Source: a virus
Direction: 5' to 3' (one strand)
Virus record (IMG/VR): IMGVR_UViG_3300008062_000001
Location: 1-41,634 of that record
Length of the DNA stretch: 41,634 nucleotides
Part shown: piece after piece, positions 2,178 to 12,051 of the stretch
Position numbering within the stretch: the first letter of the stretch is position 1
Layout: each line of letters begins with the position of its first letter
Position numbers and translations under genes: made by a program
Notes under the pieces: model-generated
Told to the model about the DNA's origin: nothing
The model's database searches: none
The model's input: the letters and a program-made list of their open reading frames with translations, nothing else

Positions 2178-2204
2178 AAAAGAAAAGGCCTCGATATGGG
2201 CCTT
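2178..2204 (-). terminator. Hairpin with T-rich tail after amidase
   Basis: AAGGCC / GGCCTT arms (2204-2199 and 2190-2185) with an 8-nt loop, followed on the minus strand by TTCTTTT. It overlaps the amidase stop codon. Probably a partial terminator, since the spanin-like gene begins 46 bp further on. Confidence 0.5.
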
Positions 2205-2775
2205 AAATGGACTCCAAAATTCTGACTATCCCTTTAATATGAAAATCAGCAATTCTTTTACGACCAATTTCACTCATGATGAATCTACAATCTGATTCAG
2301 TGTCCATGAAAAAATTCTCAGTTAAAATAGCTGGGTGCTTAGTGTGTTTTAAAATATAAAAAGCTGCTTCTTTATCTGGGTCATTGTCAGATAAATCTTT
2401 GCGCATTCTAAATTCAGATAATTCTTTTTGAGCTTCTTCAAATAGGATAGTGGCTAAAGGGTCTGCTTTAGTGTCTCCAGGACTTGTAAAAACTTCAAAG
2501 CCTGTTCCACAGCCAGCATTGGCATGAATGCTTATCAAGATAGCGTTTGAATAATAGTTAACCCTGGAACATCTCTTTGAAAGTGAAATATCAATTTCTT
2601 CGGGTACCAGAATTTTATGGTTAATATTCAAATCAACCAAAGCTTTAGCAATCCTTTTTACAATATCACGGTTAAATTCAAATTCAAATAGCTGTGTTCC
2701 ATCGTCCCATTTAGGGCTTCTTTTACCAGGTGTATTAATGCCATGGCCATTATCGAGAAGTATTATTGGTTTCAT
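2203..2775 (-). CDS. N-acetylmuramoyl-L-alanine amidase (endolysin, Amidase_3)
   Basis: A 190-aa zinc amidase that cuts the bond between muramic acid and the peptide stem of peptidoglycan at lysis. Starting at the ATG at 2775, residues 4-12 are IILLDNGHG with the first zinc ligand His11. A glutamate ligand is in LFEFEFN (Glu31 or Glu33), the second His is His84 in ISIHANAG, and the catalytic Glu is Glu153 in ILTENFFMD. This set matches Amidase_3. A longer frame upstream begins with TTG and has no family similarity, so I reject it. There is no signal peptide, so export depends on the holin. The start overlaps the holin gene by 26 bp. Confidence 0.92.
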   Translation of the reverse strand: MKPIILLDNGHGINTPGKRSPKWDDGTQLFEFEFNRDIVKRIAKALVDLNINHKILVPEEIDISLSKRCSRVNYYSNAILISIHANAGCGTGFEVFTSPGDTKADPLATILFEEAQKELSEFRMRKDLSDNDPDKEAAFYILKHTKHPAILTENFFMDTESDCRFIMSEIGRKRIADFHIKGIVRILESI

Positions 2776-3259
2776 CTTTGTTGGTTTTAAAAAGTTGTGA
2801 AATAAGAACTCTAGCATTGAGTTTATTCTTCCAAATATTTTCAGCATTTTCAAGTATAGATTTAAAGTAAACTCCTATGATATAAAAGACTAAAGTGCTA
2901 TGCATATAATGAGCAACATGCTCTTCAGCCTGACCTTTATATTGGTGAGTTAAAGCATTCAAGGCCAGGAGCAATGTAAACCAAACAAGAATCATCACAC
3001 CAAACCTTTGCATTCTTCTACTTGTTAATTTTCTGCCTTTTAATTTTGCTGCGGTTAAACCAGTAATCAGTTCAACTAAAAGCAATATAAACAAAGCCGT
3101 AAACATAAAGGGCTTTAATCCGAAAGCGTATTCTACACCAGCACCAATCATACTAATTGATGCAAGCATAGGAGCAGACTTTGGCCGCCAGAGACTCGCT
3201 AATAAGTCCTGGTGGCCACAAAATCCGATAGCTGAAAATAAGCGTTCCATTTTATTCAT
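2750..3259 (-). CDS. Holin (phage_holin_4 type)
   Basis: A 169-aa membrane protein. Hydrophobic helices are visible at about residues 30-47, 51-70 (FMFTALFILLLVELITGL), 88-104 (VMILVWFTLLLALNAL) and 120-135 (STLVFYIIGVYFKS). The motif ELITGLTAAKLKGRKLTSRRMQRFG between helices two and three is typical of the Bacteroidetes/Firmicutes phage_holin_4 family. It would form lesions in the inner membrane that let the amidase reach the cell wall. It lies between the tail fibre and the amidase genes in a standard lysis cassette. The soluble C-terminal tail of about 30 residues is basic and overlaps the amidase gene. Confidence 0.85.
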   Translation of the reverse strand: MNKMERLFSAIGFCGHQDLLASLWRPKSAPMLASISMIGAGVEYAFGLKPFMFTALFILLLVELITGLTAAKLKGRKLTSRRMQRFGVMILVWFTLLLALNALTHQYKGQAEEHVAHYMHSTLVFYIIGVYFKSILENAENIWKNKLNARVLISQLFKTNKDETNNTSR

Positions 3260-3260
3260 A

Positions 3261-5285
3261 TTATATACCTAGTTCTTTTTCAAATACTCCGTCATTTATC
3301 AATTCATCAAAACACAAACTATCCGCGTGCGTTGCAACAATTTCTTTATATGATATATAACCGCCCGCCGCCTTAATAGCATTTACAATTTCCATGTATT
3401 TAGCCGTACCTCCGAAGTCAACTGTAAATGTTGAATCATCATTTCCAACAACAATATAAATCTTAGGAAATCCAAACTTGTAAACAGTACCCGAAACATT
3501 TACTAAACCTAAATCATACCAATCATAGCCTTGAATAAATTGTTCTAAATTAGCATCATCAGCACCTCCAGCATCCATCCCGTAAGAATTTCTTATTGGC
3601 TCTTGTCTGCTTGCGCCGCCATTTGCAAAAATGTAACTTAAATCAGGAACGGGACCACAAAGAAACGCGGCTGTAATTGGAAAAGGTTTATTATACATCA
3701 ATTGTCCCGCGATTAATCCACCCATACTAGTGCAATTTAGAATGATATTAGGACTTAAGTTAAAGTTATCCATTGCGTATTTATACAATGCAATATACCT
3801 TTGTAAATGCACGTAATTTCCCCACCCGCTTGCATTTGTTGTGAATGGTGCGGCTGTTTCATCCTGACCCTGTGTTGATATAATTGCAATATTGTTTGCC
3901 TTACAGAAAGCTAACCAATTTACAGAACCTTGATAAGCGTAACTTTGCCCGTTTCCATGACAAAACAAAACGCAATAAGACGGTTTCCCATTAGTCACAT
4001 AATCATTCGGCGTACTTATGCGCGAATCAACACCGTTAACTTGAAAATCCAAAGTCACAGAACCTTCAATTTCAACACTTCCGGCATTTCTCAATAAATT
4101 AATATCAAATTTAAAATTTTCAACATCAAACCCGTCCGGCGGGTTTGTAACACCTGAAGGCATTTTTGCGAAATCTAAAGTTATTTGCACCGTTATTCCA
4201 GACGAATTTTGTTCACTCAACGTAACCGTATCAATTTGCCTTCCACCTTGCGGAGTTGGAAATATATAACTTGGGTTTGCATCCCACAACGCAACCTTTG
4301 TTCCTATGACACCAGTTGAAGTATCATACTCATAAACACCTATAAAATTTCTTGTTCCGTCATCCGCGATTCTGCATTGACCAATCGCATAGTCCTTAGC
4401 AACATCAACACTTCCGAACACCTTAATTTTTAAAATTGCTTCTTTAAATTCTGGAACAATATCAAACGTATTTGAACGGTTCCAAATCATTGATTCCGCT
4501 TGCGGTATTAAAGAAGGAACTTCTTCAGCCCTAACATAATCATCAATTTTATTTTCATCAAATACCCTTGAACTTAAACCAGCTTTTACATAAGATTGCA
4601 CTCCCCACGCTTCACCCAATGGAATAGCTGACCAATCAACAAGCATTTTCGCACTTGTCACACCAGCAAACAAATTCGTGAATTCAATTTCTTCAATTAT
4701 TCTTCCATTTACCGGACTTGGTTCAACATGCGAACCTTCCAACCATTGCGCAATTACACCATTTCCAGCAACACTATCATCCTTCACGTCATTTTCATCA
4801 AAAACAACCAACCTTATATAATGACCCTGACTTCCGTCACGCTCAAATGTGAACGGTGCAACACGCCAATTTTTATTGCCCCCTTTAATTTCCACATCAA
4901 TTATGGCATTCTGGATTCCTGGCTCTTCTCCTTCAAAAGTTGCATTTCTCTGAAATGGATAACCTACAGACCCGCTTGAAGCAGTAATTAATTCCTTTAC
5001 CCAGGTTGTACCATTCCAAAGTAGAATTGCTATCTCTCCTTGTTCTATCTCGATAGCAGAAAAATTCGAGTATGTTCCTTGCTCAGAAGCCATGTAAAAT
5101 ATAGAACCGTCTGGGGTTCCTGGATTTGTACTCGTTGTAGCAATACCTGCATAGGTTGCATTTTCCCCAACATTATCAACTATAGAAAATAATGTTTGTT
5201 GCAAATTAGTTCCTGTTATTTCTTGGTTTCCATTTGCTTTAACTATAGCAGCAATAGCCGCTTTTAAATCTGTCCAAAGTGCCAT
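3261..5285 (-). CDS. Tail fibre/receptor-binding protein with C-terminal alpha/beta-hydrolase (esterase) domain
   Basis: A 674-aa protein. Residues 1-100 (MALWTDLKAAIAAIVKANGN...) resemble the attachment part of other Bacteroidetes phage tail proteins. Residues 120-430 contain two successive beta-rich blocks with similar elements (RNATFEGEEPGIQNAIIDVE and RSNTFDIVPEFKEAILKIKV). Residues 436-674 form an alpha/beta-hydrolase: oxyanion HGNG at 443-446, nucleophile Ser520 in CTSMGG (a GxSxG variant), acid Asp616/617 in VVGNDDS, and His653 in ATHADS. A likely role is de-esterification (for example de-acetylation) of a surface polysaccharide during adsorption; the substrate is unknown. It is the most distal tail gene, next to the lysis genes. 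Confidence 0.85.
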   Translation of the reverse strand: MALWTDLKAAIAAIVKANGNQEITGTNLQQTLFSIVDNVGENATYAGIATTSTNPGTPDGSIFYMASEQGTYSNFSAIEIEQGEIAILLWNGTTWVKELITASSGSVGYPFQRNATFEGEEPGIQNAIIDVEIKGGNKNWRVAPFTFERDGSQGHYIRLVVFDENDVKDDSVAGNGVIAQWLEGSHVEPSPVNGRIIEEIEFTNLFAGVTSAKMLVDWSAIPLGEAWGVQSYVKAGLSSRVFDENKIDDYVRAEEVPSLIPQAESMIWNRSNTFDIVPEFKEAILKIKVFGSVDVAKDYAIGQCRIADDGTRNFIGVYEYDTSTGVIGTKVALWDANPSYIFPTPQGGRQIDTVTLSEQNSSGITVQITLDFAKMPSGVTNPPDGFDVENFKFDINLLRNAGSVEIEGSVTLDFQVNGVDSRISTPNDYVTNGKPSYCVLFCHGNGQSYAYQGSVNWLAFCKANNIAIISTQGQDETAAPFTTNASGWGNYVHLQRYIALYKYAMDNFNLSPNIILNCTSMGGLIAGQLMYNKPFPITAAFLCGPVPDLSYIFANGGASRQEPIRNSYGMDAGGADDANLEQFIQGYDWYDLGLVNVSGTVYKFGFPKIYIVVGNDDSTFTVDFGGTAKYMEIVNAIKAAGGYISYKEIVATHADSLCFDELINDGVFEKELGI

Positions 5286-5287
5286 AT

Positions 5288-6145
5288 TTATGAATTATTA
5301 AAGTCATTATTAAAGTCATTATTAAAATCACCATTATCTGCTGGAGTAAAGCCTCTGCCAATTTTCTTGATTACAGTATCACACTGGAACTCGGCCTCAA
5401 CAGCGGCAACATACCCCCCATCCTGCCATTTGGGTGTCATTAGAAAAGTATCAACATCATAGTTGTCCCCTTTATTTGTTATATATACACTATCAGTCAT
5501 TCGAATAATGCGCATAGCGTCGCATAAGTATTCAGGAGCTATAAAATTAAACTTAAACGTTTTCTCGCTTATTTGTTTTTCTACGAATGTATAACCATCC
5601 CTATTTTCTACCTGCTCTTCAAATTCATAATCCGGCCGACCTAGTTGAGTTGATAAATAAACATTGAATCTAAAACCCTCTGAGTAGTCTATTCTACCAC
5701 CTTCAAATATTAAACTTTCAGAATCCCCGTATTCAATCTTAAAACAACTGCTTAAATCTCTAACTATCGTAAATACTTCACTATACCATATTTCTACACC
5801 ATCTGAAATCTCAATATAATACTGACCTTCTGGAGTGTTTATAGCCATCGGTAAAATTCCAGGATATAAAATCACGTCATAACCGCTAGATTCATATCTG
5901 TTAATTTTTAAGCCTGTATAGTTCATTTCGTTTCTAATAGTTGAGACTAACACCCCATCTACTTTTCGCAAATATACGTAACTGATGGCATTCGTTCTAG
6001 TAGTTCTAATTATTTGAAAAGGTAATATTTTCCTATCAGGAGTAAGTAATGGGTATATTTCTCCGAAAGCGTAATCCTTCCTGTGATTCTGCTTGGAAAC
6101 ATCCAAGTAAAAGGGCAATATGGATAAATTATTATTCGGTATCAT
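5288..6145 (-). CDS. Tail protein, hypothetical, with DFNN repeat tail
   Basis: A 285-aa protein between the tail-tip protein and the tail fibre, so probably part of the tail tip or baseplate. It is rich in beta-strand-like segments and aromatic residues (for example YAFGEIYPLLTPDRKILPFQ, and GQYYIEISDGVEIWYSEVFT at about residues 107-126). The last 17 residues are four copies of DFNN (GDFNNDFNNDFNNDFNNS), coded by near-identical 12-bp units. Similar short Asp/Asn repeats occur in the 14041-15390 protein (GDFDGDFSDDYDSD). It starts inside the end of the preceding gene (14-bp overlap) and stops 2 bp before the fibre gene. I do not recognise a named family. Confidence 0.75.
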   Translation of the reverse strand: MIPNNNLSILPFYLDVSKQNHRKDYAFGEIYPLLTPDRKILPFQIIRTTRTNAISYVYLRKVDGVLVSTIRNEMNYTGLKINRYESSGYDVILYPGILPMAINTPEGQYYIEISDGVEIWYSEVFTIVRDLSSCFKIEYGDSESLIFEGGRIDYSEGFRFNVYLSTQLGRPDYEFEEQVENRDGYTFVEKQISEKTFKFNFIAPEYLCDAMRIIRMTDSVYITNKGDNYDVDTFLMTPKWQDGGYVAAVEAEFQCDTVIKKIGRGFTPADNGDFNNDFNNDFNNS

Positions 6146-8831
6146 ACTTTAATTGTATTTCGTTCATTCTACTTGACAAATTTACACTTAATTTTTGAAT
6201 TTGGCCATCACCAATGTACGTTTTTATAAGCTGCATTGGGTCTGGGTCTTCTAAACTTGGGTATTTAACTTGTTGCTTTTTACTTCTTTTAATACCTTGA
6301 ACATAGTAAGCTTCCCCATTTATATCAACATCAGTTGCAGGTAAATCATAAACCCAATAATTCGGATGCAAATAAATCCAACTCATTAAGCCATTCTGTA
6401 GCCTTAAATCAGCATCTTCTACAGTTCTTTGTAGAAATGGCAATTTGTATAGGCCATCAATTGTTGTGCCTTCAACTATCTTATAAGTTGGTAAAGCAGC
6501 GTCAGAAATACTAACCCGTACATAAGCGGCCCCTACAGGGGATTCCAAAGTATAAACTAAATCATCACCAGTGTTTCCAGACCCGGAAATGTAAACTTTA
6601 TTTTCATCATACCAAGCTAGAGTAGATTTATAATTCCAAGCATAGTCTGTTTCTTCTTTCACTTCTATGAATCCACTGGCATTATATGTTGGATTCGAAA
6701 TCAGTGTTCCATCATTTTTATTTATATAATAGTCAGGAGTGAAATCTGGATCAGACTCATCAAAAAGATTCGTATCATCTAAAATAGAGGCAAATAAAGC
6801 AAAACCATCTTGATTAATTGCTAGTGGGTTCAAAAGCATATAGTCAACATCGGTTGTAAAATCACCTATATTTATTTCGTCAATTTTTCCTTCTTCAACA
6901 AACTTAGAATTGATTTCTATCGGAAAACCTTCAAAACCAAAAGTTACACCATCCATCCATTTGAATTGCATTCTTTCAGCTAAATCAGCTTTATCATATT
7001 CATATTTGCTAGACTCAAAACCCCATTTTTTATTATTTTTTCTTTGAGTTAAGGTTGTTAAATCAGCTGCATAAACAGGACTCGGTGAATAAGTGCCCCC
7101 ATTTTTAAACCAGGAAATATGCTCAATCTTTAACTTACTATCTTCAATATACCAGTAGCATTGAAATGTATCTCTAAGCATTGTAAAAATTGAGCCTAGG
7201 GTTATTGGTGCTTTTTGTGCAGGTCTGTCATATTCTCCAGCAGTTATGTTTGACTTTTGAGTAATCATAACCCTGAAAGCATTGTATGTTATCGGGTTAA
7301 CATCTCCATATAAAAATTCAGAGTATTCATCTGTTCCGTCATGACTTATATCTGGAGCAAATTCAGCAAGCAATACCTTAATAACATCTGAGATTAAAGA
7401 TGTATCTTTTGCTGTATAAGCTTTGCGTCCTTGTTCTTCTAGTGACCAATCGAAAAAATCAAAATTAAACCATATAGAAGACAATCCCCAGGTGCTTCTA
7501 GCAACAGGATAATATTTGTAATAGGTAGGAAAACCAGGTGGTTCTACGAAATAATAACCATCATCTCTTAAGCCATATTCTGTAGCTTCTACATTTGCAT
7601 TTGGTGATATTGTAACCTGGTCAATGGCATAGCCGATTGCTCTTGTATAATTACGATTGTAGTCAACCAAATCATCTGTAGGAATTTCATAAGTATCGAG
7701 ACCGGCAATGGTTTCTACATCTAGTAAATAACGCATATAAACTTCAATTGATGATATGAAACCAGTCAAAGTGCCAGTACCTTGGTCTGCTACAAAATCA
7801 ATATCAACAGTATCTGGAACAGTCTCATAGTCTGCTTTAGAAGCGAACATTATAGCACTATCAGAAGTTCTACGTAAAGCATACAAATGAGAAGCTGTAT
7901 AAGCTCCAACAGTATTATAGAAAAAGGTGCTTGTATTAGTAGCTCCTCTAACATGAACCATTGAATCAGAGGCAGTATCTGGTAAATTATTAGAATGAAA
8001 ATATTGTATAAAAGTTAAAGAGCCAGTACTTGGAATTGCTACTAGCTGCCAGTCATTAGAATTATCGTCTCTCCATATACTACCTAAATCTGCCGAGGTT
8101 TTCCCATGTGTTCCCGCGGTTGACATGGTTGCTTTATTTAAAGCTGTGTAGTATATATTATAAATATCCTCACCGGCTATGTCATACACATTTTTACCAA
8201 TGTATGTATCTGTATTTTCGCTAGTGTAATCACCTAAGCAGCCCTCAGGTGTACCTGTTCCACTGACAAATATTTTATACAGTGTCGAAGCTAAAGCAAA
8301 GTAATAAGTATTGATTAGTTCGTTTGTGTCTTCTTCTTCAAAAGCAGTATCTTGCTCCCAAGAATTGCCACTCAAAAAACAACTTACAACAGAATCTCCT
8401 GGAATATAAAGTTGAATCAATGGTCTTTTTTGAATTTGTAAAGGGGTTTTCTCTGGGGCTAGTTTAATTAGATTATACTCTTTTTCTAGCCCAGCTAAAA
8501 TATCATTATAATCATCTTTAGTATCTAGCTTAATCTCAACTTTTTTATCATCTTCATCCCATTTGCAATCTGTTTTAAAAAATTTACCGGTCCAATAGTC
8601 TGTCCATGTTTGACCTTCGTCATTGCTTTTTTCAACAAGAAATACAAACTCTGTATCGAAAGCTTGCCCATCTAACCAATCAAAATCATCACGAATAAAA
8701 TTAATTTTACCAGAAAGTTGAGCACGATAAAATCGTTGTTGAGATTCTAGCTCATACTCTTTTTGCACATCATCTTTCCAAATTGGGTTGACGTAGTGGC
8801 TATTTATTGAAAATCTATACTTAATTAGCAT
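6132..8831 (-). CDS. Large tail-tip/baseplate protein with carbohydrate-binding-like insert
   Basis: An 899-aa protein directly after the tape measure gene, the usual place of the distal tail and tail-associated proteins. The N-terminus (MLIKYRFSINSHYVNPIWKD...) and the segment WTDYWTGKFFKTDCKWDEDD look like the ring domain of tail hub proteins in this phage group. Residues 701-784 look like a separate beta-sandwich: YYINKNDGTLISNPTYNASG, then FIEVKEETDYAW and YDENKVYISG. This pattern recurs in phage fibre and carbohydrate-binding modules. The C-terminus returns to the hub-like type. It overlaps the tape measure gene by 11 bp. The hub role is inferred from position and size. Confidence 0.75.
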   Translation of the reverse strand: MLIKYRFSINSHYVNPIWKDDVQKEYELESQQRFYRAQLSGKINFIRDDFDWLDGQAFDTEFVFLVEKSNDEGQTWTDYWTGKFFKTDCKWDEDDKKVEIKLDTKDDYNDILAGLEKEYNLIKLAPEKTPLQIQKRPLIQLYIPGDSVVSCFLSGNSWEQDTAFEEEDTNELINTYYFALASTLYKIFVSGTGTPEGCLGDYTSENTDTYIGKNVYDIAGEDIYNIYYTALNKATMSTAGTHGKTSADLGSIWRDDNSNDWQLVAIPSTGSLTFIQYFHSNNLPDTASDSMVHVRGATNTSTFFYNTVGAYTASHLYALRRTSDSAIMFASKADYETVPDTVDIDFVADQGTGTLTGFISSIEVYMRYLLDVETIAGLDTYEIPTDDLVDYNRNYTRAIGYAIDQVTISPNANVEATEYGLRDDGYYFVEPPGFPTYYKYYPVARSTWGLSSIWFNFDFFDWSLEEQGRKAYTAKDTSLISDVIKVLLAEFAPDISHDGTDEYSEFLYGDVNPITYNAFRVMITQKSNITAGEYDRPAQKAPITLGSIFTMLRDTFQCYWYIEDSKLKIEHISWFKNGGTYSPSPVYAADLTTLTQRKNNKKWGFESSKYEYDKADLAERMQFKWMDGVTFGFEGFPIEINSKFVEEGKIDEINIGDFTTDVDYMLLNPLAINQDGFALFASILDDTNLFDESDPDFTPDYYINKNDGTLISNPTYNASGFIEVKEETDYAWNYKSTLAWYDENKVYISGSGNTGDDLVYTLESPVGAAYVRVSISDAALPTYKIVEGTTIDGLYKLPFLQRTVEDADLRLQNGLMSWIYLHPNYWVYDLPATDVDINGEAYYVQGIKRSKKQQVKYPSLEDPDPMQLIKTYIGDGQIQKLSVNLSSRMNEIQLKYDTE

Positions 8832-11800
8832 TGTAAATTCTCCTTAGATTTTTATAGGTTTCAATCACTCTACCCTTACCATCCACGAAATACCTTCTCT
8901 CGCCTTGTTTCTTGATGTCTCGGACGTCATTTTCCAAATTCTTTATATCTACATTGTTTGAAACAGCACTCAACGAGAGGCCTCCTAAATCATACGCAGG
9001 GCCATACTTTTTTTCAAATATTCCTTTATTAAGAGATTTAATAATTCCAGGTAGTATATTTTTATATTTACGAGTTTTGTGTTTATTAATAACAGCTAAG
9101 GCCTCATCTTTTTCACCTCTTAATTCGTGGCCATTGTTGTGGCCAATCACCGTATCGTTTCCAGAAGCATGAGAACCACCACCTAGTATTTCTAAACCAC
9201 CATCCGCAAACTCTTTTTTCTTTGCAGCTTGTCCAGCTTTTATCTTGGCAAAAGCAAATGAACCAAACATAACAGCAATAGCTGGGATAGCCCAGGGGAA
9301 ACCCAATGTGCCCCATATTTTTGCGGCTCCAGTAACAAGCGAGCCAATTTGTTGTAGTGTCTCAATAGCCGCTTGAGCTTTCTGCGCTTTTTCTTGCTGT
9401 TTTAAAGCTGCATCTTGCTGCTTCTTAGCTAAGGCTAATTCTTTCTGAGCTTGGGACACATTAGAAGCGTACCCATTATTTCTAGCTTCTATTTCAGAAT
9501 CAACAGCACTTTGAGCCGCATCGGCCTCCATATCAGCAGCCTCAACAGCAGCATTTGCCGCATCTACTTTAGCTTGTAGAAATGTATTAACTGCGTCAAT
9601 AGCATATTGTGTACTGATTGAAATTCCTTCTTTTGCTTCATCGCTAAGATTCAAACCAACAGCAGAGTAAATGTCTTGGTCTTCATCCACGGAAGTAGCC
9701 ATTTCTTGGTTGATTTTCTCAATAGTATTTTTTACAGCTTCTACTTGAACTTTTGATAAATCACCACCACTTTTTTTGTTAAGGTCTAAAATAGCTTGTA
9801 GTCTTTCTTTTTCAGCTTGTAACCGCAATCGAGTTTTTTCTGCCTCGGTGGTTTTCATTATATCAATCTCAGAAAGACGCAAATCATATTCCTGGTCTAA
9901 CGCATCTAAACCGGCTTCGTACTGTTGTTTCTGTAATTTCTTAGAATCCTCTAAAGCTTTTGTGTCGGCAGCCTCTTTTTTCTCGGCCAAATCTTTTTCA
10001 GCTTCAGCTAAATCTTGATTAGCAATCCGACGTTCTCGAACAATCTCAAGTAGTCTACCCTCAATTATTTCTGATAAGCCTAAACCCCTTATTTTTTGAT
10101 TTAAAGCAACTGCGTCACTCTCATTTATTAAATCATTTGCATTGATTTGTTGGTCAGTGAACTGTTGTATCGTTTCAATCTGCTTGGCAAAAGTATCTTC
10201 AAACAGGCCTTTAGTCTGGTCTAAAACTTTTTTACGCTCTTCAAAAGTTTTAGTGTCGTCCGCTATTATTCGCTCATTAATTGTTTTTTGATTATCAAAA
10301 CCGTCAATAAGAATATCTAAATCTTTTTCTAACCTATCTTGCTTTAATTCAGATTCGCGCTTTTGATTTTCATCGGTAACAAGTAAATAATCTCGTTGGG
10401 CTCCTTTTAAAGTTTTATAGGCGTCAAGCTGCTGGTCAAGTAAATCTTCAATATCTTCACCCTTTTTAGAACGCAAATCAATTTCTCTATTGATTAAATC
10501 TAAATTACTTTTTGCTATTTCTTGTTCAACGCCAGCACGCTGTATGGTCAATTGTGAAGCCTGTTTAGCGGCCTCTTCTCTTTCTTTAAATGATTTGGTT
10601 GAGTTGTCAGCTGTAGCTCTTAAAAGCTCCTCTTTTGTTATTAAATCTTCTAACTGCTTTTCTAATTCCCTATTTGCTGTTCTGGTATCACGTCTAGCTT
10701 GTTCTAATTGTGCAAAAGCATCTGCTTGGTCATATATGGCTTTAGTAGTTTCTTGGATTGCTTGGGCAAAACTTTTTTGTTGTTGCTCATCTAAACCAGT
10801 ATTCATTTGAACTAAAGCGGTACCCGCATCTTTTGCGGCTGTTTTTAAGCCTTCCATATCTCGCTCCCAGAGAGCTTTGAAAGCACTACCGAGGGCTTTA
10901 ACTAAATCGATTACACCAGTAAGCCTATTTACTATATTCTTTTTAAGAGCCTCCCAGAAGTCTTTCATAGCTTGTTGGGGGTCTTCAAATACTGCTTTTA
11001 ATCCTTCATATAAAGTATTGACAACACCGACTAGAGCCGAAAAAATACCATTTAAAGCAGCGCTTCCTTTTGCCAATAAATCAGAACCGGCTTTTGTTTG
11101 TTTGAATAACTTATATAGAGCAGCTAAACCCGCAACAATTCCGGCGATTAATAATATAATAGGATTGGCTAATAGTTTTTTAGCGGCGGCCCCAATACCT
11201 TGTAAACCCCCAGCTGCGGCCCCGGCTGGCCCAGGTAAACTAGCTAAAGAGTCTTTTAAACTTTCAGACCCTTCTGTCATATCTTCAAAATCTACATCCT
11301 CAATATCATTTTGGATGTCATCCAAGCTTTTACCGGTTGTAGTTGCCAGCTCAGAAATAGAAGTTTCAAGAGCTTTCACTTCTTTATCATAAGCATCAAT
11401 AGCCTCTTGATTTTCTTTTATTACTTTTGGCTGCGCTTCAAAATCCTTTTTTGTCTTCTGGAGCTGTTGATTTAATCGAATTTGTTCTTTAATAGCATCG
11501 AGAATACTATTTTTATAATTACCTACATTTAGTGTGTACTTTCCAGTTGCCTCCTGGAGGCGCTTCATCTCTTCATAAATCTCAGCGGTTTGTTTTTCTA
11601 AAGCTTGACCTTCTTTGGTATTATCTCGCTGAGCTTTACTCATTGCATTCAACTCAACTTTATTTAAAGCGTATTGGGCTGACAATTTATCATACGAACC
11701 CTCAGCAGCTTCATTAAGTTTCGCTGTGAGTTTATTTATATTATTTTGTTGTTGTTGGGCTAGTTTTACTTTGGCTAATTGTTTGCCAGTATCTTCTCGA

Positions 11801-12051
11801 GACTTATTTAAACGGTCTTCTGCTGAAGCTAATTTGTCAGCCTCGGTAGCTGCTTTTTTAGTTGCTTTCTGGCCTTCTTCGGTAACACCATTTACTTTTT
11901 TGATAGTTATCTCTAAAGCCAAAGCATCGTCTTTGATTTTTTTAAGCATTTCAGAATAAGTAGACTGTAAGTCTTCTAACTGCTTTATGAGGCCTGTTAC
12001 ACTTTCATCAGGCTTAATAAAATCGCTATATTTTATCGGATTATCTGCCAT
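8821..12051 (-). CDS. Tail tape measure protein
   Basis: The longest gene, 1076 aa. It is mostly predicted coiled coil with Ala, Lys, Glu and Gln (residues 20-260 and 430-910). A hydrophobic segment at about 290-312 (NPIILLIAGIVAGLAALYKL) and another near 920-945 (LGFPWAIPAIAVMFGSFAFA) are typical of tape measure proteins. Near the C-terminus is GGLEILGGGSHASGNDTVIG, a motif common at the end of Bacteroidetes tape measures. In this family tail length scales at about 0.15 nm per residue, which predicts a tail near 160 nm and so a siphovirus. The neighbours fit: chaperone-like gene before, tail-tip genes after, with 11-bp overlaps on both sides. Confidence 0.92.
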   Translation of the reverse strand: MADNPIKYSDFIKPDESVTGLIKQLEDLQSTYSEMLKKIKDDALALEITIKKVNGVTEEGQKATKKAATEADKLASAEDRLNKSREDTGKQLAKVKLAQQQQNNINKLTAKLNEAAEGSYDKLSAQYALNKVELNAMSKAQRDNTKEGQALEKQTAEIYEEMKRLQEATGKYTLNVGNYKNSILDAIKEQIRLNQQLQKTKKDFEAQPKVIKENQEAIDAYDKEVKALETSISELATTTGKSLDDIQNDIEDVDFEDMTEGSESLKDSLASLPGPAGAAAGGLQGIGAAAKKLLANPIILLIAGIVAGLAALYKLFKQTKAGSDLLAKGSAALNGIFSALVGVVNTLYEGLKAVFEDPQQAMKDFWEALKKNIVNRLTGVIDLVKALGSAFKALWERDMEGLKTAAKDAGTALVQMNTGLDEQQQKSFAQAIQETTKAIYDQADAFAQLEQARRDTRTANRELEKQLEDLITKEELLRATADNSTKSFKEREEAAKQASQLTIQRAGVEQEIAKSNLDLINREIDLRSKKGEDIEDLLDQQLDAYKTLKGAQRDYLLVTDENQKRESELKQDRLEKDLDILIDGFDNQKTINERIIADDTKTFEERKKVLDQTKGLFEDTFAKQIETIQQFTDQQINANDLINESDAVALNQKIRGLGLSEIIEGRLLEIVRERRIANQDLAEAEKDLAEKKEAADTKALEDSKKLQKQQYEAGLDALDQEYDLRLSEIDIMKTTEAEKTRLRLQAEKERLQAILDLNKKSGGDLSKVQVEAVKNTIEKINQEMATSVDEDQDIYSAVGLNLSDEAKEGISISTQYAIDAVNTFLQAKVDAANAAVEAADMEADAAQSAVDSEIEARNNGYASNVSQAQKELALAKKQQDAALKQQEKAQKAQAAIETLQQIGSLVTGAAKIWGTLGFPWAIPAIAVMFGSFAFAKIKAGQAAKKKEFADGGLEILGGGSHASGNDTVIGHNNGHELRGEKDEALAVINKHKTRKYKNILPGIIKSLNKGIFEKKYGPAYDLGGLSLSAVSNNVDIKNLENDVRDIKKQGERRYFVDGKGRVIETYKNLRRIYNAN

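Follow-up and report, generated by a model that had tools for sequence, protein, structure and literature searches.

We analyzed a window of 41,634 bases, an entire virus record, in which a minus-strand gene at positions 3261 to 5285 encodes a protein of 674 residues. Sequence comparisons and structure models indicate that it is probably a modular receptor-binding tail protein, with an esterase tip that would act on ester groups of host surface polysaccharide during adsorption. The protein adds an alpha/beta-hydrolase to the enzymes borne on one tail attachment domain of Bacteroidota siphophages.

The gene lies in the tail module of a Bacteroidota siphophage

The window virus is a siphophage infecting Bacteroidota bacteria. 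Phages of Bacteroidota account for 74 of the 75 records matching its portal protein, which shares 66% identity with its counterpart in Croceibacter phage P2559Y and 49 to 57% with those of Bacteroides, Parabacteroides, Alistipes and Elizabethkingia phages among the matches listed. The gene and its neighbors are as follows.

8821 to 12051: tape measure, upstream of the gene
6132 to 8831: 899-residue protein, upstream
5288 to 6145: 285-residue protein, upstream, matching phrog_33450 "tail fiber protein"
3261 to 5285, minus strand: complete tail/receptor-binding protein gene, 674 residues
2750 to 3259, minus strand: holin, downstream
2203 to 2853, minus strand: Amidase_3 endolysin, downstream

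The open reading frame (ORF) has an ATG start and is uninterrupted; an overlapping plus-strand ORF at 4728 to 4979 was without support and was set aside. Within the stretches retrieved, the upstream gene order recurs in BKO1-3, TCUEAP2, PDS1, PD491P1, P2559Y and P2559S, whose tail genes are syntenic with the window's, and also in C1_85S2P. Lysis genes lie 3' of the corresponding tail gene in BKO1-3, TCUEAP2 and PDS1. The order of tape measure, protein of about 830 to 900 residues, protein of about 285 residues and attachment-domain gene is conserved in phage tail modules, and the window gene sits directly after the tail protein of about 285 residues and before the lysis genes, the position expected of tail proteins carrying the phrog_36068 domain. 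This synteny suggests that the product is located on the tail.

The holin and the endolysin are the next minus-strand genes downstream, as would suit a non-virion enzyme that is associated with lysis or released. Such a role is extremely improbable given the N-terminal domain and the gene order, conserved as it is in tail modules; moreover, no signal peptide was seen by eye. In IMG/VR, single-protein scans detected nothing related to the 674-residue protein as a whole, and the gene had no DNA-level match in any phage record.

One attachment domain carries different C-terminal enzymes

The protein was divided into four parts.

4971 to 5285, minus strand: N-terminal attachment domain, residues 1 to 105
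4512 to 4970, minus strand: beta-rich module A, residues 106 to 258
4050 to 4511, minus strand: beta-rich module B, residues 259 to 412
3264 to 4049, minus strand: alpha/beta-hydrolase domain, residues 413 to 674

An attachment domain at the N terminus of a tail protein had been proposed in the earlier note, and both synteny and a match of residues 1 to 105 to phrog_36068 (E 6.7e-20) bear this out. These residues are 39 to 56% identical to relatives and 41 to 50% identical to the corresponding proteins of named phages, and residues 41 to 100 have a mean pLDDT of 86 to 97 per block in the full-length model. A scan found the domain at 39 IMG/VR loci. As judged by these comparisons, a domain of about 105 residues is conserved at one gene position in Bacteroidota siphophages, and this conservation and position suggest that residues 1 to 105 would dock the protein to the tail tip.

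What follows the attachment domain varies. Pfam detected a GDSL/SGNH esterase in 11 of the 32 members scanned, a calcineurin-like phosphoesterase in 2, and, in single cases, a pectate-lyase-like domain, an M14 carboxypeptidase, an AstE/AspA-type domain and a weak GDPD match. The GDSL/SGNH esterases, where they could be placed, occupy the C-terminal end. Croceibacter phage P2559S gp25, which has the attachment domain in common with the window protein, is annotated with an SGNH esterase domain. With such varied enzymes after one conserved N terminus, the gene is a platform for exchangeable terminal enzymes.

An alpha/beta-hydrolase C terminus was found behind the attachment domain in the window protein and in two IMG/VR phage proteins, L015 (734 residues) and L054 (796 residues). 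The gene position and upstream tail proteins of L054 match those of the window. The hydrolases of L015 and L054 are 39% identical to each other and 23 to 24% identical to that of the window, from which the two proteins differ in having a longer hydrolase and another middle part. Separately, the attachment domain of L054 is a variant (positions 4588 to 4900): an insertion (NPTDHSLPAWDNNAK) interrupts an N-terminal region that is otherwise conserved.

The earlier note had called a fused alpha/beta-hydrolase less usual. This is right only in part: on this attachment domain the alpha/beta fold is in the minority, with precedents, but an esterase at this gene position is ordinary, esterase-type modules being the commonest detectable C terminus, and virion lipases and tail esterases had been predicted before.

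The C-terminal domain is an alpha/beta-hydrolase

The best Pfam match of the C-terminal domain was a weak one to Hydrolase_4 (PF12146; Serine aminopeptidase S33; E 0.0031), whose 17.3 to 19.8 bits against a curated cut-off of 27 place the domain outside that Pfam family. Pfam gave no GDSL match; with its alpha/beta-hydrolase fold, the domain does not belong with the SGNH/GDSL esterases. A direct single-sequence search found no match in the PDB, a two-sequence hydrolase profile found none in IMG/VR, no plasmid matched, and the collections searched held no close relative of the domain. NCBIfam matches, including a Shiga-toxin model (E 0.09; 12 bits, where the cut-off is 730), were dismissed as chance.

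As Pfam alone is weak, it is the relatives that settle the identity of the domain. A profile built from the window, L015 and Seahorse hydrolases matched solved esterases (E 2.5e-5), and a six-member profile found the 3doh esterase, the acid region being aligned with its "DDPVVP". RTX-toxin chains in the profile results reflect the common alpha/beta-hydrolase fold only. An AlphaFold2 (AF2) model of the domain, of moderate confidence (pLDDT 57.5, pTM 0.62), showed the alternating beta/alpha order of alpha/beta-hydrolases. Structure prediction followed by a search against esterase structures, a check proposed in the earlier note, came out in favor of its reading: Foldseek returned 466 PDB matches with E <= 0.001. 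Alpha/beta-hydrolase esterases headed the list, and FphF, FrmB (an S-formylglutathione hydrolase) and Lactobacillus esterase B ranked at the top (probability 1.00). Profile, Foldseek and homologues retaining the triad thus agree on an alpha/beta-hydrolase at the C terminus, which extends over about 262 residues (413 to 674) rather than the 240 first proposed.

In the phage collection, the only match to the window hydrolase was gp33 of Arthrobacter phage Seahorse, an annotated esterase of 694 residues (28 to 29% identity over about 165 to 180 residues, aligning with residues 401 to 583), which also ranked fifth in a Foldseek search of a viral library. Like the window protein, it has a C-terminal alpha/beta-hydrolase with TSMGG, DD and GGH, whereas its N terminus is unrelated, its host is actinobacterial, and its neighborhood is different and includes a second, adjoining esterase. 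The latter is a stand-alone alpha/beta-hydrolase on the opposite strand, directly after gp33 (L002, 4780 to 5607, minus strand). A related hydrolase is borne by a different tail fiber in L055. This phage fiber of another type (3889 to 7023) has a short collagen-like GATGATG stretch and, at its end, a member of the same alpha/beta-hydrolase family; it is preceded by a gene resembling a second long tail fiber.

A real hydrolase fold could have another target, whether outer-membrane lipids, as a lipase or phospholipase would, or surface proteins, as a peptidase of the acylaminoacyl-peptidase or S33 type would. The Serine aminopeptidase S33 model as the best, if weak, Pfam match, acylaminoacyl peptidases among the Foldseek matches, and carboxypeptidase-type or phosphodiesterase modules in relatives at the matching gene position all point in that direction. 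We consider it unlikely, since carboxylesterases top both the Foldseek and the profile results and SGNH esterases predominate among the relatives.

The putative catalytic residues are conserved

HGNG, Ser520 in CTSMGG, Asp616/617 and His653 all lie where the earlier note had placed them.

3948 to 3959, minus strand: HGNG, putative oxyanion motif, residues 443 to 446, after the first strand of the model
3726 to 3728, minus strand: Ser520, putative nucleophile, invariant in the alignment and at a strand-turn-helix position in the model
3435 to 3437, minus strand: Asp617, putative catalytic acid, an invariant Asp in the alignment
3327 to 3329, minus strand: His653, putative catalytic base, the sole His past the last predicted strand

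CTSMGG spans residues 518 to 523, and GNDD, with both Asp616 and Asp617, spans residues 614 to 617. Either aspartate had been offered as the acid. Asp617 is the likely one, as it is invariant in the six-member alignment while position 616 varies (D/Q/E). The spacing from Asp617 to His653 is 36 residues, as against 32 to 36 in relatives, and HGxG, SMG, an Asp and a downstream His are kept in L015, L054, L055, L052, L053 and Seahorse gp33. In the AF2 domain model, with residue 413 numbered 1, Ser520 follows strand 102 to 107, Asp617 follows strand 196 to 201 and His653 follows strand 232 to 236, each in a loop shortly after the strand, which is the canonical order at moderate confidence. Sequence positions and strand order are compatible, at the level of topology, with the expectation that a predicted structure would bring the serine, the aspartate and the histidine together.

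The nucleophile elbow is C-T-S-M-G, with Cys at -2. A G-x-S-x-G elbow is usual in alpha/beta-hydrolases and is not strictly required. The elbow reads A-T-S-M-G in Seahorse gp33 and G-x-S-M-G in the remaining relatives. This non-canonical C-x-S-x-G elbow, in a domain that is divergent and shorter than those of L015, L054 and the bacterial relatives, might suggest a catalytically dead fold, retained as a carbohydrate-binding receptor domain. We regard that as very unlikely: the three triad residues and HGxG all persist at a mere 22 to 27% identity to relatives, and Seahorse gp33 likewise has no Gly at -2, where it has Ala.

The middle region suggests a tandem duplication

Modules A and B resemble each other weakly (BLASTP E 9e-5; alignment score of 65, where 500 shuffles reached at most 50) and were modeled mainly as strands, at low confidence. 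This similarity suggests that residues 106 to 412 (4050 to 4970, minus strand) arose as a weak tandem duplication of a beta-rich module of about 150 residues. The full-length model has pLDDT below 50 for most of residues 102 to 428 and is read here as beta-rich and nothing further; its Foldseek matches were mostly not meaningful. A C2-domain Pfam match at residues 267 to 306 (E 0.0085) was under the cut-off and was not used.

An esterase tip would act on the host surface

In the arrangement that we favor, a receptor-binding tail protein with an esterase tip, residues 106 to 412 would make up two beta-rich modules behind the docking domain, serving as spacers or binding glycans. Residues 413 to 674, with Ser520, Asp617, His653 and the oxyanion loop around HGNG, would cleave ester bonds. 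The target would most likely be O-acetyl or other acyl groups of host surface polysaccharide, met at adsorption.

Tail proteins that combine receptor binding with a serine esterase are known in Escherichia coli phage G7C (gp63.1) and in Klebsiella prophages and annotated in P2559S (gp25), and differ from the window protein in having the SGNH fold, not the alpha/beta-hydrolase fold. G7C gp63.1 is a demonstrated deacetylase, and two Klebsiella prophage proteins are esterase-active (PMC13123978). By analogy with these precedents, although of another fold, ester removal from the host surface is the best-supported reading, and de-esterification of surface polysaccharide by the window protein is plausible.

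For Cellulophaga phages, virion-associated lipases have been predicted (Pires et al. 2016), experimental validation being lacking according to a review that cites the prediction (PMC5380687); by description only, these resemble the window protein as predicted ester hydrolases of Bacteroidota phages. The alpha/beta-hydrolase fold was screened by DepoScope as a possible polysaccharide-degrading fold, and the benchmark proteins that it missed include four alpha/beta-hydrolases (PMC11326577). With these precedents, the window protein is a further case of a known type, one more of the tail proteins that swap enzymes on one attachment domain. Gut and marine Bacteroidota have variable polysaccharide coats, and different enzymes on the same dock offer a comparison set for how these phages handle them.

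Related modules occur in bacterial lipoprotein-like proteins

C-terminal alpha/beta-hydrolases of the window's wider family also occur in DUF4988 lipoprotein-like proteins of Bacteroidales (L052, L053 and L058). These are bacterial genes whose products carry a lipoprotein-like signal and have DUF4988 at the N terminus in place of the phage attachment domain. Two of them (L052, 4891 to 6927; L053, 505 to 2577) lie in two Bacteroidales metagenome-assembled genomes, and a search of 295 Bacteroidales genomes gave a single match, in the genome of L052. The L015 hydrolase is 51 to 52% identical to the L052 and L053 modules, which argues that the module is common to phage and bacterium and could thus provide a handle on the substrate. 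The hydrolase of the window itself is remotely linked to these modules (E 2.7e-7 to L052 in a small set).

Bacteroidota phages and their hosts may draw surface-glycan-modifying catalytic modules from one pool, in which case a phage might reuse enzymes that its host applies to its own surface, and the module would predict host surface chemistry. We offer this idea tentatively and hold it to be rather doubtful.

In both bacterial loci (L052, 338 to 6927; L053, 505 to 6996), adjoining lipoprotein-like genes have one DUF4988 N terminus and differing C-terminal enzymes, namely, a GDSL esterase, a carboxypeptidase-like sequence (recognized by eye) and the alpha/beta-hydrolase. In their modularity, these clusters mirror the phage tail proteins on the bacterial side.
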